This document shows positions 4,283-30,047 of a DNA stretch of 38,194 nt, piece after piece. Within the stretch, counting starts at the first letter, position 1. Every line of letters starts with the position of its first letter. Location of the stretch: NCBI GenBank assembly GCA_903847975.1, contig CAINFC010000151.1, positions 1 through 38,194 on the forward strand, read 5' to 3'. A program made the translations under genes and the position numbers. This stretch comes from an uncultured Acidobacteriota bacterium. GTDB lineage: Bacteria; Acidobacteriota; UBA6911; CAINFC01. The notes beneath the pieces are model-generated. The model was not told where the DNA came from, made no database searches, and saw nothing but the letters and a program-made list of their open reading frames with translations.

Positions 4283-4704
4283 GTTGCATTTCTCCCTTCG
4301 TGAAAAACAGGGGCATTTCCGGATGCCGATTTGCTCCGGCATCTTTATGTAACAATAGCGGAATCGGCAGGGAGTGGGAATCCGGTGGAATCCCTAACGG
4401 CGAGGTTGTTAATCACTTAAAGGCTGCCCCTTAAGGGATTTCCCCTAGCGGGCCGGGAGTTTGCATTGACGAAAAAGGCTTCGCTGAAAGAAACCGGTTC
4501 CGCACTTCCAACCGGTTTGTCATCCGGGATGGCTTCGTAAAAAGTTCCGTCTCCTGGCGACAAGCCCTTCCGCTTTTCTTCCCGCTCTTCCTTTCTTCCT
4601 GTAAACCCAATCATTTCACAGGAAGACGGGAAGATCTGGAAGGAAGAAAGAAGCCATCTGTGTATTTCAGAAGGGGAGAGGGACTTTTTACCGGGTCATC
4701 CCGC
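4283..4704. other. Intergenic region with repeat elements
   Basis: A 422-bp gap without a credible gene, between the 5' end of the membrane kinase operon and the 3' end of the NarL-type regulator. It holds a palindromic repeat (4595-4655) and, at 4528-4545, a single copy of GATGGCTTCGTAAAAAGT. The same 18-mer is present in reverse complement at 22585-22602, and a diverged form makes the terminal arms of the element at 33823-33980. Short open frames here have no ribosome sites and no recognisable sequence. The promoter of the kinase operon must lie here, but no clear -35/-10 pair was found. Confidence 0.6.
4595..4655 (+). repeat. Dispersed palindromic intergenic repeat, copy 1
   Basis: The core (4595-4633) starts CTTCCTGTAAACCCAATC and ends ACAGGAAGACGGGAAG, with arms CTTCCTGT and ACAGGAAG that can form a hairpin. 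Similarity to copy 3 (22890-22950, opposite strand) continues through the purine-rich GATCTGGAAGGAAGAAAG segment, giving about 61 bp of near identity. The copy lies 50-110 bp beyond the stop of the NarL-type regulator gene. Confidence 0.8.
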
Positions 4705-5357
4705 CTAGGGCTGGACGATTTTGTTGCGCACGGCGTAGAGCACCAGCTCGCTTACCGAGTGCAGATCCAGCTTGTTCATGATGTTGGTGCGGTGCGCTTC
4801 CACGGTTTTCACGCTCAGGGACAGACGGCCGGCAATCTGCTTGCTGCTGTTGGCTTCGGCAATCAGCTGAAGTATTTCCCGCTCCCGGGGCGTCAGCCGA
4901 TCTCCGGAGGCCGGGTCTGCTCCCCCCACGGTGCCGGGGGAAAGATATTGATGCAGCAGGATTGCGGAAACCTTGTCGGTGAAGAACGGCTTATGTTCGG
5001 CCAGGGTTTCCAGGGCGGGAATCAGCTGGTGCTTGGCATTGGTTTTCAGCAGAAAACCAAGGGCCCCGGCCGCCAGCACCTGGCGAATCAGCTGTTCCGA
5101 ATCGTGCATGGTCAGGATCAGGACTTCGGTACCGGGAAGCGCCTTGCGGATTTTCCGGGTCACCTCCAGCCCGTTGAGAACGGGCATGCTGAAATCGAGA
5201 ATGACGATGTCGGGTTTATGCAGCAGGGCCAGATCCAGGGCTTCCTGACCGGTACCGGCCTCCCCGCAGATGGTCCAGCAGGGCTGCCGCTGGAGCAGCA
5301 TCCGCAGCCCTACGCGAACGATATCATGGTCGTCGGCAATCAGAATTCTTAACGATT

Positions 5358-5361
<4 letters not shown>
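4705..5361 (-). CDS. NarL/FixJ-family response regulator (REC-LuxR HTH)
   Basis: DNA-binding response regulator of 218 residues, the usual family length. The receiver has D10/D11, phospho-acceptor D56 (ILDFSMP), T84 and K106. The C-terminal LuxR-type helix-turn-helix (about 153-212) contains LTPREREILQLIAEANSSKQ and a recognition helix around SVKTVEAHRTNIMNKL. Its ATG overlaps the stop of the upstream kinase by 4 bp (ATGA), so the two form a cognate pair in the NarX/NarL style. Phosphorylation is expected to cause dimerisation and promoter binding. Targets cannot be read directly; the divergently placed protease gene at 7545 is a nearby candidate only. Confidence 0.95.
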
Positions 5362-7286
<1,925 letters not shown>

Positions 7287-15856: not shown

Positions 15857-17239
15857 TTACCGGTAGCCGCCCAGATGGGCGAAAGCAAGCAGAACCAGGG
15901 CCAGCGCGAAAAAAAAGATCTGGGCCGGAAGCATCCAGCGAAACCAGCGGTCCCAGGGAATCCCGGCCAGGCCGAGGACGCCCATGGTCACCCCCGAGGT
16001 CGGCAGAATGGGGTTGATCCACCCTTCCCCGAACTGGAAGGCCAGGACCGCCGTCTGGCGGGAAATGCCGACCACCTCGGCCAGGGGAGCCATGATGGGC
16101 ATGGTCAGGGCCGCCTGCCCGGATCCGCTGTGCACAAAGAAATTGATGATCCCCTGGACCACAAACATGGTCTGGGCGGCCACCACCGGATGAAGATGGG
16201 TGATGACCGAGGAAAGCTGGTAAAGCAGGGCATCCAGGATCCTGCCGTCCTGGGAAACGACCAGGATGGCCCGCGCGCAGCTGATGATCAGGCAGACGCC
16301 GACCATATCCCGGGCGCCGGCCTTGAAGGCGTCGGTGATCTCCTCGGCGGACAACCGGCCGACAATCCCGCCCAGCAGGCCCAGCCCCAGGAAGAGCGCG
16401 GCTATTTCATTCATATACCAGTGCAGGACCAGGATCCCATAAACCAGCAGAACCACCGCGGCCCCGAAGATCAGCAGCACCCCTTGCTGGGGCCGGGTCA
16501 GGCGCACGCACCCTTCTCCGGCCGCGGATGGCTGCACGCGGGCCAGGTCGATATCGTATACCGGGCTGCTCCGGGGATCCCTTCGCAGCCGCGCGGCGTA
16601 AGCCATGACAAAGGCGATCATGCAGACGGTGCTCAACACCCAGATGACCATCCGGTAGCCCAGCCCGGAGTACATGGGCAGCTCGGCGATGTGCTGGGCA
16701 ATCCCGACCGTGAACGGATTCAGGGTGGAGCCGGCGAACCCGGCCGCCGCCCCCAGAAACGGGATCGCGGTACCGACGATGGAATCGTAACCCAGGGAGC
16801 GGGCCAGCGGAATAAAGATGCCGATAAACGGCAGGGTCTCCTCGCACATCCCGAAAATGCTGCCGCCCAGGGAAAACAGGGTCATAGTGATGGGAATAAA
16901 CAGCCGGCGGAGATGGGGCCGGTCGGCGCAAAGGGTTGCCAGGCGCTGCACGGCGGCGCTGATGGTGCCGGTCTTCTCCAGCACCAGAAACGACCCCCCG
17001 ATCACGAACAGGAAGGCGATAATCGGGGCGGCCTGCACGAAGCCGGTGACCGGCGCGACCAGGACCGCGCCGATCCCCTGCGGAACGGCCTCGGTTTTCC
17101 GGTAGGAATCCGGCTGCACCAGGGTTTTTCCCTCGACCACCACGCGCTGGTACTCCCCGCCGGGAACCAGCCAGGTGACGACGGCCACCGCCACCACCAC
17201 CGCGTAAATCATGAGCAGGGTATTGAAATGGAATTTCAT
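15857..17239 (-). CDS. YfcC-family membrane carrier
   Basis: Polytopic inner-membrane carrier of 460 residues, the usual family length, with about 11-12 hydrophobic segments. Family signatures include FGMCEETLPF (near 130), AAGFAGSTLNPFTVG, VHSGSGQAALTMPIMAPLAE and INPILPTSGVTMGVLGLAGI. These mark the YfcC/DcuC-like ion-transporter superfamily. Members are annotated as basic amino acid or C4-dicarboxylate carriers, often on weak evidence. It is the last gene of a three-gene operon, with its ATG overlapping the stop of the S51 peptidase gene by one base (TGATG). Next to a cyanophycinase-like enzyme and an M20 peptidase, uptake of arginine, aspartate or a dipeptide is plausible but unproven. 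GATAGC repeat copy B follows directly. Confidence 0.9.
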   Translation of the reverse strand: MKFHFNTLLMIYAVVVAVAVVTWLVPGGEYQRVVVEGKTLVQPDSYRKTEAVPQGIGAVLVAPVTGFVQAAPIIAFLFVIGGSFLVLEKTGTISAAVQRLATLCADRPHLRRLFIPITMTLFSLGGSIFGMCEETLPFIGIFIPLARSLGYDSIVGTAIPFLGAAAGFAGSTLNPFTVGIAQHIAELPMYSGLGYRMVIWVLSTVCMIAFVMAYAARLRRDPRSSPVYDIDLARVQPSAAGEGCVRLTRPQQGVLLIFGAAVVLLVYGILVLHWYMNEIAALFLGLGLLGGIVGRLSAEEITDAFKAGARDMVGVCLIISCARAILVVSQDGRILDALLYQLSSVITHLHPVVAAQTMFVVQGIINFFVHSGSGQAALTMPIMAPLAEVVGISRQTAVLAFQFGEGWINPILPTSGVTMGVLGLAGIPWDRWFRWMLPAQIFFFALALVLLAFAHLGGYR

Positions 17240-18105
17240 CAGTCGCCTTTCCTGGGAAGGGGCTTGCGCTTGGAGAGATCGAAGCGGTCGCCGGAGCGCA
17301 GCAGGTGCAGCTGCAGCCCGGCGGCCGCCAGGTTCCCGGCCGGATCCCGGGTGGTCTTCGAAGCTTTTGCGGCATCCAGGACCAGCACCGTGGAGTCGCC
17401 GAATACTTCGAACAGTCCTCCCGGCCGGACCACGACGGCCGTGGCTTCGTCAATGCCGATGCCCAGCAGCTGCGGGTGCTCCAGGACCAGGGTCAGCAGC
17501 CGGTTGTGGCGCTTTCGCCGCAGGAAATGCTGGTCGACAATGGCATTTTCCAGAAAGCCGAAGCCTTCCGCCGTCAGGATGTTGGTGCTGCGGATCATGA
17601 AGAAGCCGTTGTCCGGATCCTTGTTGAAGCGCTCATCCCCGGTGATCATCATCCGGCTCATCACCGCCGCTCCGGCGCTGGTGCCGCAGACCGCCGCCCC
17701 CGCCCGATACAGCTCGTGCAGGCGGCGGGCGGTTCTGGTGCCCCGCAGGACATCCATGAGGCGGCTCTGGTCCCCGCCGGCAAAATAAACGCCGGTGACT
17801 CCCTTCAGGCGCTCCAGGACGGCCTCGGAGTCGGCCTCGGCGCGGGAAAGATTTAAATAACGGACTTCACGGGCCCCCAGCCGCCGGAACTCCGCGGTCA
17901 GCTCCTCGCCCATGGTGGCGGCCAGCGAGCTGGCCATCGGAAAGACGGCAAGGACGGCCCCGCTTCCGCCGGCCAGGCGAAGGAATTCCTGCATGATGGC
18001 CGGCCCGCGGCTGCCGCCGCCGATGATCACCAGGGACCCCTTCGGTCCGGGCGCCGCAGCGGCCAGAGCCGGCAGCACCAGGGCCAACAGGAGGAACCGC
18101 AGCAG
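17239..18105 (-). CDS. Exported cyanophycinase-like peptidase (family S51)
   Basis: Serine peptidase of the cyanophycinase branch, which cuts cyanophycin (aspartate backbone with arginine side groups) to beta-Asp-Arg dipeptides. Seen: GSLVIIGGGS near the N terminus, GVYFAGGDQSRL (GGDQ about 110-113), the nucleophile elbow VCGTSAGAAVMS (S143), DQHFLRRKRHNRL and LGIGIDEATAVVV. A signal peptide (LRFLLLALVLPALAAAA) implies export. No ATG exists near the start. The best fit is CTG at 18105, preceded by GAGAGG within 3 nt and just after the upstream stop; an alternative CTG at 18102 has 6-nt spacing, and TTG at 18087 has no ribosome site. The ATG at 18258 would overlap the upstream gene by about 145 bp. 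Peptidase E is a less likely alternative. It is the middle gene of the operon. Confidence 0.86.
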   Translation of the reverse strand: MLRFLLLALVLPALAAAAPGPKGSLVIIGGGSRGPAIMQEFLRLAGGSGAVLAVFPMASSLAATMGEELTAEFRRLGAREVRYLNLSRAEADSEAVLERLKGVTGVYFAGGDQSRLMDVLRGTRTARRLHELYRAGAAVCGTSAGAAVMSRMMITGDERFNKDPDNGFFMIRSTNILTAEGFGFLENAIVDQHFLRRKRHNRLLTLVLEHPQLLGIGIDEATAVVVRPGGLFEVFGDSTVLVLDAAKASKTTRDPAGNLAAAGLQLHLLRSGDRFDLSKRKPLPRKGD

Positions 18106-18112
18106 AAACCTC

Positions 18113-19225
18113 TCAGGCGCGGACCAGCTCCACGGCGATCCGGAAGGTCGAATCGAGATCCTCCAGGAGGACGAACTCCTCCGCGGAGTGCGGCTTCTGG
18201 GCCCCGATACCGATGTTGACGGCCGGAACCCCTTTGGCATTGTACTGGTTGGCATCACTTCCTCCCGTGTAGCGGATGGGTTGCGGAACGCAGCCGGCGG
18301 CCCGGATGGCGCGGTCCAGATCTTTCACCACCCCGGCCGATCCCGGAAGCACATAGGGCTCGAAATCGACCTGGGTTTCAAACTCCAGCCGCCCCTGGCC
18401 CTGCACGGCATCCAGGAACGTCTGCCGGATGACCTCGAGCTGCTCCAGGATTCGCGGGGGATCGAAGGAGCGGACCTCCCCTTCCGCCACGACCTTTTCC
18501 GGAATGGCGTTGACCGCTTCCCCGCCCTGGATCCGGCCGACGTTTGCCGTGGTATTGGCGTCGAGCCGGCCCAGGCTCAGCCGGGCAATGGCCTGGGAAG
18601 CCATGACGATGGCGCTGGCCCCCTCCTCCGGGTTGACCCCGGAATGAGCCGCCTTCCCGAAAATCCGGGCGGTAAAAAGGTGCAGGCCGACCGACTCCTG
18701 GATGTAGATGCCCGGACGCCGGGAACAATCGAAAACCACCCCGCCGCTCACCCGGTAGGGGCTCAAATCCACGGTTCCCGCTCCCAGCAGTCCGATTTCC
18801 TCGGCCACAGTGAAGACGCAGAAAAAATTACGATACGCCAACTGCCCCGCGGCGCATTGCCGCAGGAGCTGTACCAGCACCGCCAGGCCCAGGCGGTTGT
18901 CCGCGCCGAGAATCCCGGTGCCGTCGGAGGTGATCCGGTCCGGGTGCACCACCGCCTTCTGCCGTCCGGTCGGAAGAACCGTGTCGAGGTGCGCGGTGAG
19001 CATCAGCGCCGGGCGACCGGAATCGAAGCCCGGGGGAAAGCAGAGCAGGTTTCCCGCATCTCCCCCCAGAACCGAGGCAGAGGAATCCTCCTCGACCCGC
19101 ACGCCGCTCCGGCCTAAAAGGCGGATCAGCTCATCGGCCATCGGCCGTTCTTTCAGGGAAACCGCGTTGATCCGCACCAGATCAAGAAACAGAGGAATCA
19201 GCCCGTCGGAGAATGGTTTGGTCAT
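18113..19225 (-). CDS. M20-family metallopeptidase (PepT-like)
   Basis: Cytoplasmic zinc aminoacyl or di/tripeptidase of 370 residues; no signal peptide. The co-catalytic metal site is complete: H79 and D81 (LTAHLDTV), D109 (LGADN), catalytic Glu142 and ligand Glu143 (TVAEEIGLLG), D166 (VVFDCS) and the final His in QKPHSAEEF. A dimerisation insertion begins near KAAHSGVNPEEGASAI. PepT and related M20 enzymes hydrolyse short peptides. First gene of the operon with the secreted S51 peptidase and the YfcC-type carrier, so it may split imported dipeptides; activity on isopeptide bonds cannot be predicted from sequence. The ribosome site is weak (AAGAAAAACAT before ATG). The divergent NtrB-like kinase starts 223 bp away. 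Confidence 0.9.
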   Translation of the reverse strand: MTKPFSDGLIPLFLDLVRINAVSLKERPMADELIRLLGRSGVRVEEDSSASVLGGDAGNLLCFPPGFDSGRPALMLTAHLDTVLPTGRQKAVVHPDRITSDGTGILGADNRLGLAVLVQLLRQCAAGQLAYRNFFCVFTVAEEIGLLGAGTVDLSPYRVSGGVVFDCSRRPGIYIQESVGLHLFTARIFGKAAHSGVNPEEGASAIVMASQAIARLSLGRLDANTTANVGRIQGGEAVNAIPEKVVAEGEVRSFDPPRILEQLEVIRQTFLDAVQGQGRLEFETQVDFEPYVLPGSAGVVKDLDRAIRAAGCVPQPIRYTGGSDANQYNAKGVPAVNIGIGAQKPHSAEEFVLLEDLDSTFRIAVELVRA

Positions 19226-19448
19226 ATGTTTTTCTTAAGCCGTCCATGGGCGGGAGGCATCGGCCCTCCCGGCCGGTTCGCGCATCCCCCCCGCCGATTT
19301 TAGGAATTCCCCCATGGGATGTCAAGCGGTCGGTGTTCGCCGGTTCCTTTTGCACCTCCGCAACGCCGACCGGAAGGTGCATCTTCCTTTCGTTCGCAGG
19401 TAAAACAGGGAATAATTGACGGAAACAAGGAACGTATGCTGAAACGCC

Positions 19449-20954
19449 ATGGCCCATAAAACCGCTTGCCCCCACTGTGGTCAACCGACGCCGGCCGCGC
19501 AGGCGCAGGAGCGACCCGCCGCCGCGGAACCGTCCCGCCCGGCGGAGGACCCCCTGGACCTGCAGAAAATCCTTTCCATCGGAAACGCGGTCAACGCCAC
19601 GCTGAACCTGGAGACCGTGCTCAAACTGGTCCTGGATTACTCCATGGAGATAACCCAGGCCCAGCGCGGATACATCTTTCTGCGGCAGGACAGCGGGGAG
19701 CTGGCGGAAACCCTGGCCCGGGATGCGGGGCCCGCCGCCCCGGATGGATCGCCGCGGAGAATCAGCCGCAGCGCGCTGGACTTCGTGCTGAAAAAGGGAA
19801 AAGTAGTCGCCACGCTGAATGCCCAGAGGGACGCCATGTTTTCGGACTCGCGCAGCGTCTTTGACCTGGGACTGCAGACCATCGTCTGCCTCCCCCTGCA
19901 GGCCGGCCGGGAAGCCGCCGAGTCCGCGGCCGCTCCGGCATCCCCTTCGGTCCGCGGCGCCATTTACCTGGACAGCTCCCTGCCCCTGCAGTACTACACC
20001 GCCCACAAGCAGTCCCTGCTGGAGGTCATGGCCAACAGCGCCGCCACCGCCATCGAAAACGCCCGGCTGTACCGTGCTGTGGAGCAGCAGAAGGTGGCCG
20101 TTCAGGCGGCCGCCGAAAACCTGGAAATTCAGGTGCACCAGAGGACGGCCGAGCTGGACCAGAAGAACCGGGAGCTGCAGGCCAAAATTCATGAGCTGCA
20201 CGAGCTGCAGTCCCGGCTGGTGCAGTCGGAAAAAATGGCCACCATCGGTACCCTGGCCGGGGGAGTGGCGCATGAAATCAACAACCCGCTGGGAGCCATC
20301 ACCAGCAATGTCCAGCGCATTCTGCGCTTCCCCTGCGCCGAAAGCCGCCACGCCGAAAGCGCCCGGCTGATCGAGGAAGGTTCCCGGCGCTGCACTTCCA
20401 TCGTGGAAAAACTGCTGGCCTATTCCCGTAAATCGGACAGCACCCTGATCCCGACGGATCTGAATTCGGTTCTGGAAAGCACGCTGGAACTCCTGCAGCA
20501 TCACTTTCGCATCGCCGACATCCGCCTGGAGAAGCAGTGCGCCCCGCTCCCGCCGGTCCTCGTCAACCGCAACGAGATGGCCCAGGTGATCAGCAACCTG
20601 CTGATCAATGCCAAGGATTCCATCGCCTCGGCGCGGAATGCCGAAAGGAATTCCGGGACGATCACCCTGCGAACCTGCTTTGACTCCCGGTCGGTCTTCC
20701 TGGAGGTCCGGGATGACGGCCCGGGCATCCCGCCGGAAGTGCTGCCCCGGATTTTCGATCCTTTTTATACCACCAAGGACGTCGGCGCGGGAACCGGGCT
20801 GGGCCTGTATGTCAGCCTCGGCCTGGTACGCCGCTACGGCGGACAAATCGAAGCCGAGTCGGCTCCCGGCGCCGGCGCGCTGTTCCGCCTGATTCTTCCC
20901 CGCGTCCCGGCTGCCGCCCGGCCGCCGGACGCCTCCCCGGGAGCGGGCCCATGA
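19449..20954 (+). CDS. GAF-domain histidine kinase, NtrB/ZraS-like
   Basis: Soluble sensor kinase of 501 residues. The N terminus MAHKTACPHCGQP carries one CPHC knuckle (C7, C10) without a visible second pair. A GAF domain (about 40-205) has VNATLNLETVLKLVLDYSMEITQAQRG-type features split by an Ala/Ser-rich loop. A coiled coil (about 210-262) leads to HisKA with GGVAHEINNPLG (H275). The ATPase shows NLLINAKDSI, VRDDGPGIP and FYTTKDVGAGTGLGL. The HEINNPLG class normally drives sigma-54 regulators, and an NtrC-type gene overlaps the 3' end by 4 bp (ATGA). No good ribosome site lies next to the ATG. The divergent cyanophycinase operon upstream is a possible but unproven target. Confidence 0.93.
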   Translation: MAHKTACPHCGQPTPAAQAQERPAAAEPSRPAEDPLDLQKILSIGNAVNATLNLETVLKLVLDYSMEITQAQRGYIFLRQDSGELAETLARDAGPAAPDGSPRRISRSALDFVLKKGKVVATLNAQRDAMFSDSRSVFDLGLQTIVCLPLQAGREAAESAAAPASPSVRGAIYLDSSLPLQYYTAHKQSLLEVMANSAATAIENARLYRAVEQQKVAVQAAAENLEIQVHQRTAELDQKNRELQAKIHELHELQSRLVQSEKMATIGTLAGGVAHEINNPLGAITSNVQRILRFPCAESRHAESARLIEEGSRRCTSIVEKLLAYSRKSDSTLIPTDLNSVLESTLELLQHHFRIADIRLEKQCAPLPPVLVNRNEMAQVISNLLINAKDSIASARNAERNSGTITLRTCFDSRSVFLEVRDDGPGIPPEVLPRIFDPFYTTKDVGAGTGLGLYVSLGLVRRYGGQIEAESAPGAGALFRLILPRVPAAARPPDASPGAGP

Positions 20955-22384
20955 GTGAAAAAATCCTGGTGGTCGACGACGACCCGCTTATGCTGCAGAC
21001 TCTCCGGCTGCGCCTCGGAGACGAGGGGTACCTGGTGCAGACGGCGCCCGACGGGTTTGCCGCGCTGCAAAGCTGCGACGGCGACGACTTCGACCTGATC
21101 ATCTGCGACGTGAAGATGCCCGGCATCGACGGGCTGGAAACCCTGCGCCGGATCCGCAAGACGCGGCCGCTCGTCAAATCCATCCTGATCACCGGATTTG
21201 CCGAAACCGAAGCCCCCATCCAGGCGATCCGCCTGGGAGTCAGCGACTACCTGTTCAAGCCGTTCGAGGACGAGCAGTTCATCCACCGGGTCCGCCAGGT
21301 CCTGAGGGAGCTGCGGCTGGAGCGGGAAAACCGGCAGCTCCTGGAGGAGCTGCAGGCCCAGAACCGGAAGCTGCAGATTCAAGTCAAGGTATTCCGCGAC
21401 CGCGAGAACCGGCAGTTCGATTTCGAAAACATGGTGGGGGGGGCGCCGCAGATGTCCGATCTGTTCCAGAAGGTGCGCCAGCTGGCCCAGACCCGCTCCG
21501 CCGTACTGCTGCTCGGCGAAAGCGGGACCGGCAAGGAGCTGGTGGCCCGGGCCATCCACAACGCCGGCCCCCGCAGCAGGGAATGCTTCGTGGCCATCAA
21601 CTGCTCGGCCCTCTCCCGGGAGCTGCTGGAAAGCGAACTTTTCGGCCATCGCAAAGGGGCGTTCACCGGCGCCGACAGCGACCACCGCGGACTGCTGGAG
21701 GAAGCCAGCGGGGGTACGGTCCTGCTGGACGAAATCGGAGACATGCCGCTGGAGCTCCAGGCCCGGCTGCTGCGCGTCCTGGAGCAGGGCACCCTGCGCC
21801 GCGTGGGGGAAAACACCGAGCGGCGCATCGACGTGCGCATCCTCTCGGCAACCAATATCGACCTGGCGCAGCGCATGGCCGAGGGGACATTCCGCCAGGA
21901 CCTCTACTATCGCCTCAATACCATTACTCTTCGAATTCCCTCGCTCCGCGAACGCCCGGAAGACATCCCCCGCCTGGCGGAGCATTTCCTGAAGCGCTTT
22001 TCCGCGGAACAGGGCAAGCGCCTGGCGGGATTTTCCGCTGAGGCCCGGCTGTGGATGCAGCGCTACCGCTGGCCGGGGAACGTGCGCGAGCTGCGCAACG
22101 CCGTCGAGCGGGCGGTCATCTTCGCCGAGGAGGGAGCGCCGGTCGCCGCGGAGAGCCTGGCCGCGGAGGAATTCCGCCCCCGGGAGGCCGCGGTTCCGGC
22201 CGCCGAGCCGCCCTCGGATCAAAACCTGGGCCAGCGCGTGGCTCTTTTCGAAAGGCGGCTGATCGCAGAAGCGCTGGAAAAGGCCCAAGGGCAAATTACC
22301 CAGGCCGCCCGGCTGCTGGGCATTTCCCGCACCAATCTGCACAACAAGCTCGCCAAGCACCGCATCGGCATCCGCGAGCCCTGA
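20951..22384 (+). CDS. NtrC-family sigma-54 response regulator (REC-AAA+-Fis HTH)
   Basis: Enhancer-binding activator of 477 residues, the normal family length. The receiver has D9-D11, phospho-acceptor D53 (IICDVKMPG), T81 and K103. The AAA+ domain has Walker A GESGTGKE (189-196), an intact GAFTGA loop contacting sigma-54 (236-241), Walker B GGTVLLDEIGD and the arginine-finger region FRQDLYYRL. The C-terminal Fis-type helix-turn-helix contains QAARLLGISRTNLHNKLAKH. It should couple ATP hydrolysis to open-complex formation at sigma-54 promoters. It overlaps the kinase gene by 4 bp, making a cognate NtrB/NtrC-type pair. No convincing -24/-12 promoter was found in this window, so its regulon probably lies elsewhere. 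Confidence 0.95.
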   Translation: MSEKILVVDDDPLMLQTLRLRLGDEGYLVQTAPDGFAALQSCDGDDFDLIICDVKMPGIDGLETLRRIRKTRPLVKSILITGFAETEAPIQAIRLGVSDYLFKPFEDEQFIHRVRQVLRELRLERENRQLLEELQAQNRKLQIQVKVFRDRENRQFDFENMVGGAPQMSDLFQKVRQLAQTRSAVLLLGESGTGKELVARAIHNAGPRSRECFVAINCSALSRELLESELFGHRKGAFTGADSDHRGLLEEASGGTVLLDEIGDMPLELQARLLRVLEQGTLRRVGENTERRIDVRILSATNIDLAQRMAEGTFRQDLYYRLNTITLRIPSLRERPEDIPRLAEHFLKRFSAEQGKRLAGFSAEARLWMQRYRWPGNVRELRNAVERAVIFAEEGAPVAAESLAAEEFRPREAAVPAAEPPSDQNLGQRVALFERRLIAEALEKAQGQITQAARLLGISRTNLHNKLAKHRIGIREP

Positions 22385-22964: not shown

Positions 22965-24053
22965 CTAGACGATGATCCCGCGCTGGGCCATCAGCTCCGC
23001 GGTGAGAATCGCGCCGCCGGCCGCTCCGCGCACGGTATTGTGGTGCAAGCCGACAAAGCGCAAATCGAAGACTTTGCAGGGACGCAGCCGGCCGACGACC
23101 ACCGCCATGGCCTGATCGATATCACGATCCTTGCGGGGCTGCGGGCGGTTGGGCTCATCGCGGTACACGATCGGCTCCTGGGGAGCCGAGGGCAGGTTCA
23201 GCTGCTGGGGCACCGAACGGAATCCGCGCCAGAGGCGGATGGTTTCCTCCAGCTCGGGCTTTCGGCCGTCAAAGGCGACGCTGACGCAGGCGGTGTGCCC
23301 GTCCACTACCGGCACCCGGTTGCAGTGGGCGGAAATCGCGAGTTCCGAGTCAGGAACGATCACCCCGTTCTCCAGGCGGCCGAAAATCTTGAGGGGCTCC
23401 AGCTCCGACTTCTCCTCCTCGCCTTTGATGAAAGGAATGATGTTGTCTACCATGTCCAGCGAGGGCACTCCCGGATATCCCGCGCCGGACACCGCCTGCA
23501 GCGTGCTGAGAACGATTCGCCGGGGATGATAGCCGGCCTGCATCCAGGCCCACAGCGGGGTCATGTAGCTTTGTATGCTGCAATTGGACTTGACGGCGAT
23601 GCACCCCTTGTCCCAGCCCCGGGCCCGGCGCTGGTGGGCGATCACCTCGAGGTGGTCGGGATTGATCTCGGGAATAATCATGGGAACATCGGGGGTCATC
23701 CGGTGGGCGGAATGGTTGGAAACCACCGCAAAGCCCGCCGCGGCATACGCGACTTCCAGGGCCTCCGCGGCTTTCTTGTCCAGGTCCACCGCCGAAAAAA
23801 GGAGCTGGCATTTCCCCTGGGCGGAGGACACCTCGTTGGCGTCCCCGACGACCAGGTTTCGGACCGGCTCGGGTACCGGCGTGGACATGAGCCAGCGGTC
23901 GGCGATCACCTCGGCGTATTTCCTGCCCGCCGACTGCGGTGAAGCCGCCAGGTACGTTATGGAAAACCAGGGATGATTTTCCAGCAATCGAATGTAGTTT
24001 TGTCCCACCATTCCGGTGGCACCCAGAATTCCAACCTGCAGCCTTGGGATCAT
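22965..24053 (-). CDS. asd: Aspartate-semialdehyde dehydrogenase (archaeal/fungal-type)
   Basis: Reduces beta-aspartyl phosphate to aspartate semialdehyde with NADPH, the branch point to lysine/diaminopimelate, threonine and methionine. The 362-residue protein has the nucleotide-binding GATGMVGQ (11-18), catalytic Cys158 in VKSNCSIQSYMTP and a His253 motif in CNRVPVVDGHTACV. SNCS-x-Q-x-x-x-TP and the length near 350 fit the archaeal/fungal-type Asd, not the E. coli enzyme. The start at 24053 follows GAGGG by 7 nt; the upstream in-frame ATG at 24185 would translate through a terminator hairpin. It sits downstream of the ABC importer genes, separated by a terminator, and palindromic repeat copy 3 follows its stop. 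Threonine synthase is encoded 12 kb away. Confidence 0.93.
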   Translation of the reverse strand: MIPRLQVGILGATGMVGQNYIRLLENHPWFSITYLAASPQSAGRKYAEVIADRWLMSTPVPEPVRNLVVGDANEVSSAQGKCQLLFSAVDLDKKAAEALEVAYAAAGFAVVSNHSAHRMTPDVPMIIPEINPDHLEVIAHQRRARGWDKGCIAVKSNCSIQSYMTPLWAWMQAGYHPRRIVLSTLQAVSGAGYPGVPSLDMVDNIIPFIKGEEEKSELEPLKIFGRLENGVIVPDSELAISAHCNRVPVVDGHTACVSVAFDGRKPELEETIRLWRGFRSVPQQLNLPSAPQEPIVYRDEPNRPQPRKDRDIDQAMAVVVGRLRPCKVFDLRFVGLHHNTVRGAAGGAILTAELMAQRGIIV

Positions 24054-24086
24054 AGACTTACCCTCACTCCCGTTGATCCTGTCGCT

Positions 24087-24104
24087 GGCCTGCCGTTGCA
24101 GGCC
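24087..24104 (-). promoter_or_regulatory. Short perfect hairpin in the asd leader
   Basis: GGCCTGC-N4-GCAGGCC, a 7-bp stem with a 4-nt loop, immediately after the T run of the terminator hairpin and 33 bp before the asd ATG. It may be part of an attenuator or a 5' stabilising stem for asd RNA. Confidence 0.4.
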
Positions 24105-24109
24105 TTTCG

Positions 24110-24147
24110 AAAAAAAGCCCGCTGCCGGACCGTTTCCGGCAGCGGGC
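24110..24147 (-). terminator. Intrinsic terminator between the ABC importer genes and asd
   Basis: On the minus strand a perfect 12-bp GC-rich stem (GCCCGCTGCCGG/CCGGCAGCGGGC, 7-nt loop) is followed by seven T residues. It lies 75 bp after the permease stop and 57 bp before the asd start, so it either ends the importer operon or attenuates asd. Confidence 0.88.
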
Positions 24148-24173
24148 CGTCCTTGTTCCGTTTCAACCCTTCT

Positions 24174-24202
24174 ATTGTAATACAAAACCGCCGGCGGACC
24201 AA
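24174..24202 (-). promoter_or_regulatory. Weak promoter candidate upstream of the terminator, reading towards asd
   Basis: TTGGTC (24197-24202), a 17-bp spacer and TACAAT (24174-24179) on the minus strand. If active, the asd leader would be about 113 nt and would include the terminator hairpin. The -35 match is poor. Confidence 0.3.
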
Positions 24203-24221
24203 AAAAAGCACCGCCGCTCCC

Positions 24222-25049
24222 TCACCTCTCTCTTCTCCTCGAAAGCCCCCAGCGTTCCCGGATCCATCGCTCCAGCAGGGCAAAAAGGCAGCGGTCCGTC
24301 AACAGCCCCAGCAGTACGATAATGACCATGACCGCCAGAACCTGGCTCATGTCGTTCAACTCGCGCCCCATGGTCAGCAGGTTGCCCAGACCGGGAAGCG
24401 CATAAAGGAGCTCCCCGGCCATGAGGGAGCGCCAGGCAAACGACCAGCCCAGCTTCATGCCCGTAACGATGCTCGGCAGGGACGCCGGAAGAACCACGGA
24501 AAAATAAAGCCGCCACCCGGAAGCACCCAGGTTCCGCGCCGCCTGGACATAGATCGGCGGCGTGTTGCGAATGCCGTCTTCGGTCGCCTGGGCAATGGAG
24601 AGCACCGCTCCCATCACCACCACGAAAAGAATGGCGCGCTCGTTGAGCCCGAACCAGAGGATAGCCAGGGGCAGCCAGCAAATGCTGGGCAGGGTCTGCA
24701 GCCCCAGCACCAGCAGCCCCAGGGTCTCCTTCAGCCACTGCAGCTGCCCCATCAGCAGCCCCAGCGCCAGACCGATTCCCAGGGCGATCCCGTAGCCGAG
24801 CAGCAGCCGCCTCATGCTGGCGGCAATCCCGATCAGGAAGCTGTGATGAAGCAGGCCGTGCGCCAGGGTGTCGAACACTTCCAGGGGGCCGGGGAACAGA
24901 TAGCCCGGCCAGAGCCGCAGCCGGAAGGCCAGCTCCCAGCCGAGCAGCAGGGCGGCAAAGAACAGCAGGCGACCCAGAAGCTTCCCGGAAAAACCGGTCC
25001 TTTCTCCCGCTGCCTCCCGCTCCGGCATATCGCGCTTTCCACCGGGCAT
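24222..25049 (-). CDS. ABC importer permease, SsuC/TauC type
   Basis: Inner-membrane permease of 275 residues with about six hydrophobic segments. The EAA loop that contacts the ATPase reads EDGIRNTPPIYVQAARNLGASGWRL-like, followed by VVLPASLPSIVTGMKLG, matching the SsuC/TauC/NrtB class for sulfonates, taurine, nitrate or related anions. Its ATG overlaps the stop of the ATPase gene by one base (TGATG), so this start is preferred over the in-frame ATG at 25100 inside the ATPase gene. Last gene of the importer operon; a strong terminator follows. The substrate cannot be fixed because no desulfonation or nitrate gene is nearby. Confidence 0.92.
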   Translation of the reverse strand: MPGGKRDMPEREAAGERTGFSGKLLGRLLFFAALLLGWELAFRLRLWPGYLFPGPLEVFDTLAHGLLHHSFLIGIAASMRRLLLGYGIALGIGLALGLLMGQLQWLKETLGLLVLGLQTLPSICWLPLAILWFGLNERAILFVVVMGAVLSIAQATEDGIRNTPPIYVQAARNLGASGWRLYFSVVLPASLPSIVTGMKLGWSFAWRSLMAGELLYALPGLGNLLTMGRELNDMSQVLAVMVIIVLLGLLTDRCLFALLERWIRERWGLSRRRER

Positions 25050-25792
25050 CAGGACACCTGCATTCCGGCCAGGATCTTCCCAGCCAAGGGAATGACGCAC
25101 GGATCCTCCATGCGGCGGGGGCGCGGCAAATCGATGCGATACTCAGCCAGAATGCGGCCCGGATGGGGGGACATGACCACCACCCGGTCTCCCAGGACGA
25201 CCGCCTCGCGCACGTTGTGGGTCACAAACACCATGGTTTTATGGGTGCGCAGCCAGAGCTCCTGCAAATCGCCGTGCAGCCGGTCGCGGGTAATGGCGTC
25301 CAGCGCTCCGAACGGCTCGTCGAGCAGGAGCACCTCCGGGTCCACCGCCAGGGCGCGAGCCAGAGCCACCCTCTGCTTCATCCCCCCGGACAGCTCGTGC
25401 ACCCAGGAGCGGCTGAATTTCTCCAGGTGCACCATTTCCAGAAGGCTTTCGGCGGTGCGGGCGCATTCGGCGGAAGGCAACCCTTTCATTCTTAAACCGA
25501 ATTCCGTATTGGCCTGCACGTTCAGCCAGGGGAAAAGGCCGGCATCCTGAAAGATAAGCACCCGGCTGGGATCGGGACCGGAAACGGGCACTCCGTCGGC
25601 CAGCACGGCGCCTTCGGAAGGAAAGTCGAGGCCGGCCAGGAGATTGAGGATCGTGCTTTTTCCGCACCCCGAAGGCCCGATCAGGCACAGGAATTCCTGC
25701 TCCGCTATGGCCAGATCGATCCGATCCAGGGCGGTAACGGACCGTCTGGGCCGCCGGAAAGTTTTGGAAACCTGTTTCAGTTCGAGATTCAT
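25049..25792 (-). CDS. ABC importer ATP-binding protein, SsuB/TauB type
   Basis: Cytoplasmic ATPase of 247 residues that powers the importer. Walker A GPSGCGKST (39-47), Q loop in LIFQDAGLFPWL, ABC signature LSGGMKQR (134-141), Walker B VLLLDEP (154-160), D loop GALDA and the H-loop His in VFVTHNVREAVVLGD are all present. FQDAGLFPWLNVQAN is characteristic of the nitrate/sulfonate/taurine family. It lies 32 bp after the binding-protein gene and overlaps the permease by one base. The ribosome site is weak. Confidence 0.94.
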   Translation of the reverse strand: MNLELKQVSKTFRRPRRSVTALDRIDLAIAEQEFLCLIGPSGCGKSTILNLLAGLDFPSEGAVLADGVPVSGPDPSRVLIFQDAGLFPWLNVQANTEFGLRMKGLPSAECARTAESLLEMVHLEKFSRSWVHELSGGMKQRVALARALAVDPEVLLLDEPFGALDAITRDRLHGDLQELWLRTHKTMVFVTHNVREAVVLGDRVVVMSPHPGRILAEYRIDLPRPRRMEDPCVIPLAGKILAGMQVS

Positions 25793-25824
25793 GCCTTTGG
25801 AGGCACCCGGAAAGCTGCTGCCGG

Positions 25825-26865
25825 CTAGCGCACTTCCGGCTGGCCCATATCCTTTAAAATTTCATTGAGCGGGGTCAGGTCATAAATGCCGGTCAGGTCC
25901 GGCTCGCTCTTGAGAAAGCCGGCGGCATAGGCCAGCCGAGCGGATTGCTGTAACGAAGAAGCAATGGGGTCCCATGTCAGGCGCAGGCGCGACCAGGCCT
26001 GGGCGAGAACCTCCGGGTGCAGCGGCTTGCCCGTCAGTTTCCCGATCTCCGCATTCAGCAGCCGCCTGGCATCCTCCGGATGCTCCGCCGCCCACTGCGT
26101 GATCTCCACATGGGCAGACAGAAAAGCCTTGACGATCCCCGGACGGGCCCGCAGAAATTCGGTGCGAGCGATGATGTGGGTGGTGACAAAATCCCCGCGG
26201 GGCCACAGGTCGCGCTCATCGAGAAAAAGCCTTCCCCGCCCTTCGACAATCAGGCGGCTGGCCCAGGGCTCAGGCACCCAGGCGGCATCGACCTGCTTCT
26301 GGCGGAACAGATCCAGGATCAGGGGGTTCTCGACGGGAATGACTTCCACCGATCCACCCCGCTCCAGGGTTGCCATCCGGTGCGAAACCAGGTAGCTTCG
26401 CAGCGCCACATCCTGGGTATTTCCGAGCTGGGGGGAAGCAATGCGCTTGCCGGGAAGATCCTCGGGCTTATGAATTCCGGATTCGGGATGCACGACCAGC
26501 GAGGCTCCGCCGCTGGTGCAGCCGGCCACGATGCGCAGGGCCTCCCCGCGGGACTGAACGAAGCCGTTGATCGCCGGATTGGGGCCGATGTAGGCCAGAT
26601 CAATCTGCCCGGCGAAAAGAGCTTCGATCACTGAGGGACCGGCGTTGAACTGCATCATACGCAGGGCGGTCCGGTCCCCGAGGACTTTTTGAAAATCGCC
26701 GCGGGCCGATCCCAGGATCGCCTGGGCGTGGGTGACGTTCGGGAAAAAACCGACGCGCACCACCGGCATCCCGCCACCGCTTTCCGGAGCGGTCCGGCAG
26801 GAGCAAAAAACCGGCAGGGCGATCAGGCAAAGGGCAACCCGGAGCATGTACGAATTTCGGTTCAT
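25825..26865 (-). CDS. ABC importer substrate-binding lipoprotein, SsuA/TauA/NMT1-like
   Basis: Periplasmic solute receptor of 346 residues, first gene of the importer operon. The N terminus (MLRVALCLIALPVFCSCRT) is a short signal sequence ending in a Cys-rich lipobox-like site. The mature part shows VRVGFFPNVTHAQAI, IDLAYIGPNPAINGF, IVAGCTSGGASLVV and RIASPQLGNTQDVALRSYL, patterns of the SsuA/NMT1-like binding proteins for sulfonates, nitrate or pyrimidine precursors. The ligand is not predictable. The ATG at 26865 is chosen as a conventional start although its ribosome site is poor; a GTG at 26886 and an ATG further in are alternatives. The divergent beta-helix gene starts 185 bp away. Confidence 0.9.
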   Translation of the reverse strand: MNRNSYMLRVALCLIALPVFCSCRTAPESGGGMPVVRVGFFPNVTHAQAILGSARGDFQKVLGDRTALRMMQFNAGPSVIEALFAGQIDLAYIGPNPAINGFVQSRGEALRIVAGCTSGGASLVVHPESGIHKPEDLPGKRIASPQLGNTQDVALRSYLVSHRMATLERGGSVEVIPVENPLILDLFRQKQVDAAWVPEPWASRLIVEGRGRLFLDERDLWPRGDFVTTHIIARTEFLRARPGIVKAFLSAHVEITQWAAEHPEDARRLLNAEIGKLTGKPLHPEVLAQAWSRLRLTWDPIASSLQQSARLAYAAGFLKSEPDLTGIYDLTPLNEILKDMGQPEVR

Positions 26866-26945
26866 CGGTGCCGTTGATAATATCACAATCCTGCGACAGA
26901 CGCGGGATTCTGAAGGATTTCAACTCCTGGACCGGAAGGCGCTTA

Positions 26946-26974
26946 TTGACGATCCCGGCGGCATCCATTACAAT
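26946..26974 (+). promoter_or_regulatory. Good sigma-70-type promoter for the beta-helix/MarC/kinase operon
   Basis: TTGACG (26946-26951), an exact 17-bp spacer and TACAAT (26969-26974), each 5 of 6 matches to consensus. Predicted start near 26981 gives a leader of about 70 nt, which has no clear Shine-Dalgarno sequence. Confidence 0.65.
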
Positions 26975-27050
26975 TTTCCGACAGTGTTATTTTTTGAATA
27001 TGCGCAAATCCTTTCCCATAATCCATTACCCTGATTCTACGCCTGATTCT

Positions 27051-30047
27051 ATGAAATTATCTCTGCGAAACTTGCTGGTTGCGAAAGCCTTCCTTTTCCT
27101 GTGGATCCTTGGGTCGGGGATTCCCCTTGGGGCCCAGGCCGATCCGCCCGACGGCAAGCTGCTGCGGGGCGAGGTCTGGCAGGAATTCCGCTATCCGGGC
27201 ACGACCGCGGATTTTTATGTTTCGCCGCAGGGAAACGACGCCTGGTCGGGAACCCTGGCGGAACCGAACTCCGGACGGACGGACGGGCCCTTCGCCACCG
27301 TGGCCCGCGCCCAAAAGGCAGTGCGGGAGCTCAAGAGCCGCACCTTCCTTCCCAAGACCGAGCCGGTGGAAAAGCGCTGGATCGGTTCTCCGCACCCCTT
27401 CGGAAAAGGAAAAGACATCCTGGTGCTCCTGCGCGGAGGCTGCTACGCTTTGCCCGAGCCGCTTCTTTTTTCGCCGGAGGACGGAGGGGAACGGATCGAA
27501 ACCAACCTGCCCAGCGGGGCTTTCGAGTATCACCACCTGAAAGACCACTACGTCACCTATGCCTCCTATCCCGGCGAAAAGGCGGTGCTTTCGGGAGGCA
27601 CGCCGGTGCCCTCCTGGACCCGCAAGGGAAACACCTGGACGGCACCCTTCTCCGGACCGGAAGCCCCCATGCTGGTGGTCAACGGGGAGAAGCAGATCCT
27701 GGCCCGCAGCCCCAACCGCGGCTATTTCCGCCCGGCGGAGCTTTCCAAAACCACCGGAGAGCTCCTTTTCCGTCCCGGGGAAATTCGGAACTGGCCGGAC
27801 ATGGCCGACAACCGCGTGGTTCTGCTGCTGCGATGGCACATCGGCATCAGCTCCATCGCCCGGGTGGACCCGGCCTCGGGGACCGCATTCTTCAAGGAGC
27901 CGCAGCCGGGGATCGTCATCGTGCCGCCCCGCTATTATGTCGAAAACGTCCCGGCCCTGCTGGATGCACCGGGAGAATGGTTCTGGGACCGCCGCGCCGG
28001 GGAAATCTCCTACATCCCCGCGGAGGGGATCGCAGATCCCGGCACAGCCCGGCCGTCCGTTCCGCGGCTGAACCGGCTGGTCGAGCTGCGCGGAACGGCG
28101 CAGAAGCCGGTTCGCAACCTGCGATTCTACGGCCTGCAGTTCGAAGCGGTGTCCCCCGGCCCGCCCGCGGGAAGCGCCCTGCGCTGGGAATATGCCCACG
28201 GCTGCGAGCTGGTGGATTCCTGGCTGCAATCCTGCGGAGGCGCCGGTGTGACCCTCGGCAAGGGCTGCTACCGGAACCGCCTTTTACGAAACCGCTTCCG
28301 GACCATCGACCAGGGAGGAATCGCCGTGGTCGGACAGGCCCGCCCCGCCCAGTTCGCGGATATCATCCGCGAAAACCGGATTTCCTACAATCGCCTCTCC
28401 GACTGCGGAGGGCTCACCGTGGCGGTCTCCGATGCCCTCTTCACCACCATCTCCCACAACCTCATCCACGCCACGCGGGGCAGCTACGCCCTTTCGCTGG
28501 GAGGCTGGTCCAACCTGGAAGAAGCCATCGACGGGGGATACCGGGTGGAGTACAACCACCTCTACGACGTCCAGAGGGATGCCGACGATTCCGGCGCCAT
28601 CCGCACCGCGGGCATGACCTACGATTCGGTGATCCGCCGGAATCTGGTCCACGACGTCCACGCGGGGTATTTCAACGACAACGTCGGCTTCTGGTTCGAC
28701 AACATGTCCTCCAACTGGATCGCCGAAGAGAACATTTTCTATAACCTCGGGCAGGGAGAGATGAAGCTGTGCGCCGCCAACCTGACGGACAACACCTATC
28801 GCCACAACTACCGGGTGGAAGCTCCGGCCGCGGCCCCCGAAGAGATCATCGACGGAGAGCCGCGCTTCTCCTTCCGCGACCTGGAGTTTTCCCTGCCGCC
28901 CGCGGAGGGCCGAACCGCCGCCCCCGGCAGCCCGCTTTCCGTGGCTGCCCTGGTCTACAATCAAGGATCCACCGGCATTCTGCCGGTTTACCTTTACCTG
29001 GACGGAAAGGTCGCGCAGCAGAAGCCCTTTCCGGTCATCCGCGGCAACGGGCGCAGGATTCAATTCGATTTCCGCGTCTATGAGCCCGGGGAGCACCAGG
29101 TGGCGATCGGCACCACCGGGCCGGCCTCCTTCGTGGTGAAAGGATCCAGACCCCTGGTTGCCGTAGAGGATCTGCGGCTTTCCGACCGCCGCCTTCCTCT
29201 GGGAGAAACGGTCCGCGCCCGCTCCGCCGTCACCAATCTGACCGGCCGGCCTCTGTCGGCTGAAATCCGACTGTTTATCGACGGCCGGGAGGCTCAGAAG
29301 AAAGTGGCGGCTTTGAAGGAAGGGGAGACCGGAGAAATCGAGTTTGCCTTCCAGCCGCCGCCCGGCAGCCACACGGTGCGCATCGAAAACGGCCGGGAGG
29401 AGAGCCTGTCGGTTTTCCCCCTGGAGCGTCTCGATCTCTCCCGGCGCCCGGTGCAGATCTACGGCTCCGCCAAGGCGGCGCCCTTCGAGGTGCAGGCCGA
29501 TGTGCCCGCCAACCGCTACCGGATCCAGGCCAGCGGGTCCGACTTCTATCACGCCGAAGACTCGTACGCCACCGCCTTCCTGGAAAAGATTCAGGGAGAC
29601 TTCGTGGCCACCGTCAAAATTAGCCGGTTCGGCAGCCGGACCCACGAATGGTTCCGCGCCGGCCTGTTCGTGCGCAACGACCTGCGCCGGAGCTTCGACA
29701 TCGAGCCCGGCAGCCTGGGCTCCATGCTGGTTTTCGCCACGCCCGGTAGGGCCGGGATCGAGTACGACGAGTTCGGCAATGGCTGCATGCACAAGGCCGA
29801 CAGCCAGAACATGCCCGAAAATACACCCTTCCCGGTCTGGCTGAAGCTGGTGCGGCGCGGCGACCGCTTCAGCGGCCACCTCAGCTACGACGGGATAAAC
29901 TGGGTTCTTGAAAAGAAATCCGTATCGCTGCCCGGGGTGGGCGCCGCCGTGGATCTAGGTCTGGCCGCGGGCTCCTGCGACAAGCAGGCCTACTGGGTGG
30001 AATTTTCCGACTGGACCGTGGAAATCGAAAAATCCGTAAAGCCGTGA
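27051..30047 (+). CDS. Secreted right-handed beta-helix protein with CARDB-like and ConA-like domains (possible glycoside hydrolase, GH141-like)
   Basis: Exported protein of 998 residues. Signal peptide MKLSLRNLLVAKAFLFLWIL ends near GAQA. The N-terminal module (about 50-330) has FYVSPQGNDAWSGTLAEPN, DGPFATVARAQKAVREL, LRGGCYALPEPLLFSPEDGG and YASYPGEKAVLSGG, a layout known from large beta-helix proteins that include GH141 fucosidases/xylanases. Beta-helix coils follow (about 350-585; NLIHATRGSYALSLGG, EYNHLYDVQRDADDSGAI), then two CARDB-like beta-sandwiches (about 613-700 and 701-790) and a ConA-like/DUF1349-type C terminus (about 805-998). It probably acts on or binds a polysaccharide; catalytic acids were not identified. 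The start lacks a Shine-Dalgarno but gives a perfect signal peptide. First gene of a three-gene operon. Confidence 0.85.
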   Translation: MKLSLRNLLVAKAFLFLWILGSGIPLGAQADPPDGKLLRGEVWQEFRYPGTTADFYVSPQGNDAWSGTLAEPNSGRTDGPFATVARAQKAVRELKSRTFLPKTEPVEKRWIGSPHPFGKGKDILVLLRGGCYALPEPLLFSPEDGGERIETNLPSGAFEYHHLKDHYVTYASYPGEKAVLSGGTPVPSWTRKGNTWTAPFSGPEAPMLVVNGEKQILARSPNRGYFRPAELSKTTGELLFRPGEIRNWPDMADNRVVLLLRWHIGISSIARVDPASGTAFFKEPQPGIVIVPPRYYVENVPALLDAPGEWFWDRRAGEISYIPAEGIADPGTARPSVPRLNRLVELRGTAQKPVRNLRFYGLQFEAVSPGPPAGSALRWEYAHGCELVDSWLQSCGGAGVTLGKGCYRNRLLRNRFRTIDQGGIAVVGQARPAQFADIIRENRISYNRLSDCGGLTVAVSDALFTTISHNLIHATRGSYALSLGGWSNLEEAIDGGYRVEYNHLYDVQRDADDSGAIRTAGMTYDSVIRRNLVHDVHAGYFNDNVGFWFDNMSSNWIAEENIFYNLGQGEMKLCAANLTDNTYRHNYRVEAPAAAPEEIIDGEPRFSFRDLEFSLPPAEGRTAAPGSPLSVAALVYNQGSTGILPVYLYLDGKVAQQKPFPVIRGNGRRIQFDFRVYEPGEHQVAIGTTGPASFVVKGSRPLVAVEDLRLSDRRLPLGETVRARSAVTNLTGRPLSAEIRLFIDGREAQKKVAALKEGETGEIEFAFQPPPGSHTVRIENGREESLSVFPLERLDLSRRPVQIYGSAKAAPFEVQADVPANRYRIQASGSDFYHAEDSYATAFLEKIQGDFVATVKISRFGSRTHEWFRAGLFVRNDLRRSFDIEPGSLGSMLVFATPGRAGIEYDEFGNGCMHKADSQNMPENTPFPVWLKLVRRGDRFSGHLSYDGINWVLEKKSVSLPGVGAAVDLGLAAGSCDKQAYWVEFSDWTVEIEKSVKP

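Follow-up and report, generated by a model that had tools for sequence, protein, structure and literature searches.

Three ORFs on the minus strand of the window (the whole analyzed stretch of 38,194 nucleotides from an uncultured acidobacterium) encode an M20 family metallopeptidase, a predicted S51 cyanophycinase and a YfcC/DcuC-family carrier, transcribed in that order (Table 1). The original prediction described them as near-contiguous or overlapping, and the junctions agree. The M20 stop codon (TGA, 18115-18113) is followed by GAGAGG and then by two CTG codons in the S51 frame (18105 and 18102), which places the M20 stop about 8 bases from the S51 start. The S51 stop and the YfcC ATG have one base in common (TGATG). 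The M20/S51 junction region contains no ATG in the S51 frame, so S51 likely initiates at CTG or at a slightly later TTG, and the ORF start assigned mechanically (18258) probably lies upstream of the true one. Past the CTG codons the S51 frame continues with LLRFLLLALVLPALAAAAPGPKG, which is typical of an export signal, and the S51 protein likely carries a Sec signal peptide and would be exported. Long ORFs antisense to the operon (for example 15875-17788, plus strand) were treated as mechanical.

A single site with at least 9 of the 12 sigma-70 consensus bases precedes the operon, and shuffled sequences give 0.9. This sole promoter-like site is of the sigma-70 type, and one transcript from it through the tightly packed frames would make all three proteins together.

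Table 1. Features of the operon and its divergent neighbors in the window.
Feature	Position	Strand	Basis
M20 family metallopeptidase, PepT-like subfamily	18113-19225	-	ORF and profile searches
Predicted S51 cyanophycinase	17239 to ~18105	-	TIGR02069, PDB relatives, CphB-equivalent residues
YfcC/DcuC-family carrier	15857-17239	-	ORF, family profiles, conserved cyanophycinase linkage
Promoter-like site TTGACA-17-TAAAAT	19325-19297	-	11/12 consensus bases; ~70 bases before M20 start
Candidate Sec signal peptide of S51 (LLRFLLLALVLPALAAAA, then P)	18052-18105	-	Read from sequence; presumed CTG start at 18105
Histidine kinase	19449-20954	+	Divergent neighbor, profile search
Sigma-54-type response regulator	20951-22384	+	Divergent neighbor, profile search

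The S51 enzyme and its genome

Profile and structure comparisons were used to identify the S51 protein. It passed the curated cut-off of the NCBIfam cyanophycinase model TIGR02069 (193.9 bits, cut-off 126.6), and its nearest PDB entries are the cyanophycinases 7uqv, 3en0 and 7uqw. Eight CphB residues (Q101, S132, Q173, H174, R178, R180, R183 and E201), which include the catalytic Ser-His-Glu and substrate residues, have equivalents that are all conserved in the window S51 and invariant in 39 of the 39 S51 relatives checked. CphB numbering was counted along the 3en0 alignment, whose chain runs 20 residues ahead, so the catalytic serine is residue 132. The closest named cyanophycinases come from Acidobacteria metagenome bins (L042 and L043; 52-54% identity). 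A long exported protein resembling an M28-type peptidase is encoded a few bases before the cyanophycinase in both of these loci (~4100-5980).

The sequence evidence strongly supports the identity of the S51 enzyme as a cyanophycinase, and the secreted, cyanophycinase-like peptidase of the original prediction stands, with its signal peptide as a candidate. Peptidase E also belongs to family S51 and PepT-like M20 enzymes are general peptidases, so the operon might instead scavenge isoaspartyl or other aspartyl peptides of decaying protein with S51 as an aspartyl dipeptidase relative. This reading is improbable given a score well above the cyanophycinase cut-off, the fully conserved CphB residues and peptidase E matches in the PDB comparison that are about 100 bits weaker.

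The window genome (8.1 Mb, 99% complete) contains one S51 gene. Cyanophycin synthetase is absent from it, the best match to the CphA model being 94/850 bits with partial low scorers only. IadA is likewise absent from the genome (IadA-model matches of at most 35 bits against a cut-off of 331), and no arginine deiminase was found in it. Because the genome lacks cyanophycin synthetase, IadA, arginine deiminase and a second S51, it is that of a cyanophycin scavenger and not a storer, as had been proposed for this operon. There is one arginase-family gene, AspA-type matches are weak only, and the single PF01112 (asparaginase_2-type) enzyme is encoded on a contig other than the operon's and looks exported, with a Tat-like leader. 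The arrangement resembles a scavenging locus in that the cyanophycinase occurs without a synthetase and is overlapped by a transporter gene, the YfcC/DcuC carrier. Where such loci have a known isoaspartyl dipeptidase (IadA or IaaA) in the cluster, the operon has the M20 gene.

Linkage of the carrier, the cyanophycinase and candidate dipeptidases

The carrier matches DcuC (PF03606) with 331 bits, and its best NCBIfam match is YfcC (NF008611) with 378.9 bits, short of the equivalog cut-off of 500. These scores point to a YfcC-family carrier of a subfamily other than the NF008611 equivalog. Escherichia coli YfcC is a homologue with 37% identity; its gene sits between ackA-pta and yfcD, whereas the window gene adjoins the cyanophycinase. 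A PDB sequence search with YfcC returned zero matches, and an AlphaFold model from eight sequences was discarded (mean pLDDT 44).

Co-occurrence of the three families was a check set beforehand for the original prediction. For the 57 closest YfcC homologues, drawn from 396 genomes of the phylum, gene positions were set against those of the S51 and M20 genes in the same genomes. A cyanophycinase is present in the genomes of 46 of the 57, lies within 5 kb of the YfcC gene in 29 and within 250 bp in 12, and the check was passed. Among more distant YfcC genes only 6/68 have a cyanophycinase within 5 kb. The genome-level association of YfcC with S51 gives a Fisher p of 9e-15 across the 396 genomes, a value that ignores shared ancestry. 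On a quick YfcC tree, in which E. coli YfcC and a few other sequences sit on long branches, the S51 label requires 10 changes compared with a shuffled mean of 23.

The S51-YfcC link is also found in Oxalobacteraceae (L044-L050). In two further loci (L247, L251) the gene directly after S51 is a YfcC more distant in sequence (37% identity), and the link therefore extends beyond the main YfcC clade. In G244, G265 and G211 members of all three families of the operon are separated by no more than 10 kb, and in L171 S51, M20, YfcC and M14 genes are consecutive on one strand with gaps of ~130 and ~95 bases. The YfcC closest to the window's (L119, 62%) is on a 4-kb contig that has M20 and no S51.

Within the compared set, only the window has its genes in precisely the order M20-S51-YfcC, as would be expected if genes of unrelated function were adjacent by chance. 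This explanation is highly improbable: S51-YfcC, M20-YfcC and S51-M20-YfcC linkages recur in many families, the reading frames overlap, and the counts across the 396 genomes contradict it. The evidence supports both the idea that M20 and YfcC are non-classical partners of a cyanophycinase and the recurrence of the set in other genomes.

The dipeptidase slot was surveyed in ~70 YfcC neighborhoods. Within 6 kb of YfcC, IadA occurs in 11, an AspA-type enzyme in 7, a PepT-like M20 in 4 and a CPG2-like M20 in 4, and among the ~70, candidate cytoplasmic dipeptidases of two kinds never share a locus. Thirty of the ~70, mostly with a more distant YfcC, have none of these partners. The designs are S51 alone with YfcC (12 loci); S51, an exported-looking M14 carboxypeptidase, IadA and YfcC (8 loci, with a TonB receptor just upstream where mapped); S51, an AspA-type enzyme and YfcC (7 loci); IadA and YfcC with or without S51 (3 loci); a PepT-like M20 and YfcC (the window, L119, L162 and L163); and a CPG2-like M20 and YfcC (L158, L171, L191 and L192). 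IadA of the sister loci is identified by 499 bits against the cut-off of 331, and their AspA-type enzyme belongs to the aspartoacylase family, with PDB relatives 8ein/8eip, and has known cyanophycin dipeptide hydrolases among its relatives.

The exported-looking M14 zinc carboxypeptidase lies beside IadA or YfcC in L169, L170, L172, L177, L179, L180, L185 and L188 and likewise in L158, L162, L163, L171 and L175. In many Streptomyces loci, a CPG2-like M20 is encoded a few hundred bases upstream of a cyanophycinase on the same strand, with no YfcC match (L078, L079, L081, L083, L086, L092-L096, L098, L100-L103, L106, L111, L115 and L117).

The window M20 matches the PepT-like model TIGR01883 (211 bits, below the cut-off of 274), and its nearest solved structures are annotated as peptidase T or tripeptidase. 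Residues H79, D81, D109, E142, E143, D166 and H346 are invariant and place the protein in the M20 family; they correspond to the metal ligands and catalytic Asp/Glu residues of M20 enzymes. Inspection of the M20 sequence by eye revealed no signal peptide. The five most similar M20 proteins (39-46% identity) are all encoded beside or near a YfcC gene. PepT-like M20s in this position have the motifs D[SC]S.[RP]PG, GSDAN and G.GAQ[NK]PH in common, a set that is missing from unlinked PepT-like M20s. The first-motif arginine is replaced by proline in one YfcC-linked M20 (L119/L219), and proline is also found in the unlinked L221. Because it fills the slot of the IadA and aspartoacylase-type hydrolases of the sister loci, the M20 is the best candidate for the cytoplasmic beta-Asp-Arg dipeptidase. 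No report of an M20 enzyme cleaving beta-Asp-Arg was found in the accessible literature.

Proposed pathway and known systems

The three genes are probably a cyanophycin-scavenging operon in a bacterium unable to make cyanophycin. Exported S51 would cut environmental cyanophycin to beta-Asp-Arg dipeptides outside the cytoplasm, the YfcC-family carrier would move the dipeptide over the inner membrane, and the cytoplasmic M20, judged by its slot, would split the isopeptide bond to yield aspartate and arginine. We propose more tentatively that a YfcC subfamily is a dedicated importer of beta-Asp-Arg derived from cyanophycin and that at least two M20 subfamilies, PepT-like and CPG2-like, are new cyanophycin dipeptide hydrolases. 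If so, several unrelated solutions exist to one step, cyanophycin dipeptide hydrolysis.

The carrier is a candidate importer of either beta-Asp-Arg or arginine, and the main uncertainty of the mechanism is whether intact dipeptide or free arginine is the YfcC cargo. Alternatively, an enzyme such as an exported asparaginase_2-type protein may cleave the dipeptide before it reaches the cytoplasm, with YfcC importing free arginine by symport or by exchange against a different cationic amino acid and M20 acting as a general peptidase. The Tat-like leader of the genome's own PF01112 enzyme and its arginase-family gene fit such a scheme. ArcE, the closest characterized carrier found in the literature and presumably a member of the DcuC/YfcC superfamily, offers a precedent for the carrier. 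In the arginine deiminase operon of Streptococcus pneumoniae ArcE exchanges free arginine and ornithine, and its described substrates are arginine, ornithine, lysine and citrulline (PMC5300872). Like ArcE, the window carrier may be a secondary carrier that serves arginine catabolism with a cationic amino acid as cargo, a candidate role in the window. The context differs, since the window carrier is linked to a cyanophycinase and the genome lacks arginine deiminase; the absence of the deiminase led us to reject an arginine deiminase (ADI)-pathway role and weakens the reading as an ArcE-like exchanger. Cleavage outside the cytoplasm also fits poorly with the M20 gene lying within the operon, in the slot held elsewhere by isoaspartyl dipeptidases. 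IadA of the sister loci has no obvious signal peptide, which favors uptake before cleavage. Splitting outside the cytoplasm is accordingly the less likely course, and dipeptide import followed by M20 cleavage is preferred.

The accessible text of PMC10206079, citing Ben Hania et al. 2017, presents cyanophycin utilization loci in which a cyanophycinase is grouped with an isoaspartyl dipeptidase and amino-acid transporters. As far as that text goes, these loci and the cyanophycinase-iadA/iaaA clusters resemble the window operon: genomes lacking a synthetase combine cyanophycinase, dipeptidase and transporter genes, with the same proposed logic of cutting, import and splitting. The window differs from them in the M20 enzyme in the dipeptidase slot and in its YfcC-type carrier, the text giving no name for the transporter of its locus. 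Acidobacteriota with secreted cyanophycinases and without CphA are also known (PMC8528874, accessible part). Candidatus Sulfomarinibacter is like the window in its Sec-exported cyanophycinase, its lack of a synthetase and the proposed external use; unlike the window, it has an isoaspartyl dipeptidase in one genome, and the accessible part of the paper describes no M20/YfcC operon.

Aspartoacylase/M14-type enzymes are reported as isoaspartyl dipeptidases specific for beta-Asp-Arg (PMC10206079, accessible text), and this family of cyanophycin dipeptide hydrolases has been named CphZ (PMC12661447). They are metallo-enzymes encoded beside cyanophycinase, as the window M20 is, and in the Oxalobacteraceae loci the AspA-type enzyme adjoins a YfcC of the window's family. 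The M20 belongs to another enzyme family, and the window has no AspA-type enzyme.

Cyanophycin-scavenging loci are thus known as a kind; the YfcC and M20 partners are new here. Literature linking M20 or YfcC to cyanophycin was not found, a weak negative as few subscription papers were covered, and no beta-Asp-Arg importer is named in the accessible literature found. According to the accessible text of a survey of cyanophycin genes (PMC10206079), several lineages have isoaspartyl dipeptidases that are still to be discovered. The window locus and its relatives supply specific candidates for both the import and the dipeptide-splitting steps, and point to broad use of cyanophycin as food by bacteria that do not produce it.

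The divergent two-component pair and other window genes

The original prediction also placed an NtrB/NtrC-like pair 223 bp from the operon and suggested that it might respond to nitrogen supply. The distance is correct, with the kinase starting at 19449; the NtrB/NtrC identity failed, as the pair missed both the NtrB (80/240 bits) and NtrC (389/559 bits) cut-offs and scores best against AtoS/AtoC-type models. The nitrogen-responsive link is likewise unsupported: the kinase/sigma-54 activator pair does not recur beside other related loci, the gap (19226-19448) holds no sigma-54-like site, with window-wide matches at chance level, and the sole promoter-like site before the operon is of the sigma-70 type. 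The kinase and response regulator are probably outside the operon's function.

Elsewhere in the window, the minus strand at 22965-26886 encodes a TIGR00978 (asd_EA)-type aspartate-semialdehyde dehydrogenase and, next to it, an NMT1-type ABC importer with its full set of permease, ATPase and binding protein. On the opposite strand from the importer, 26868-30047 (plus) encodes a protein of 1059 aa, whose matches to beta-helix and DUF1349 families are weak.
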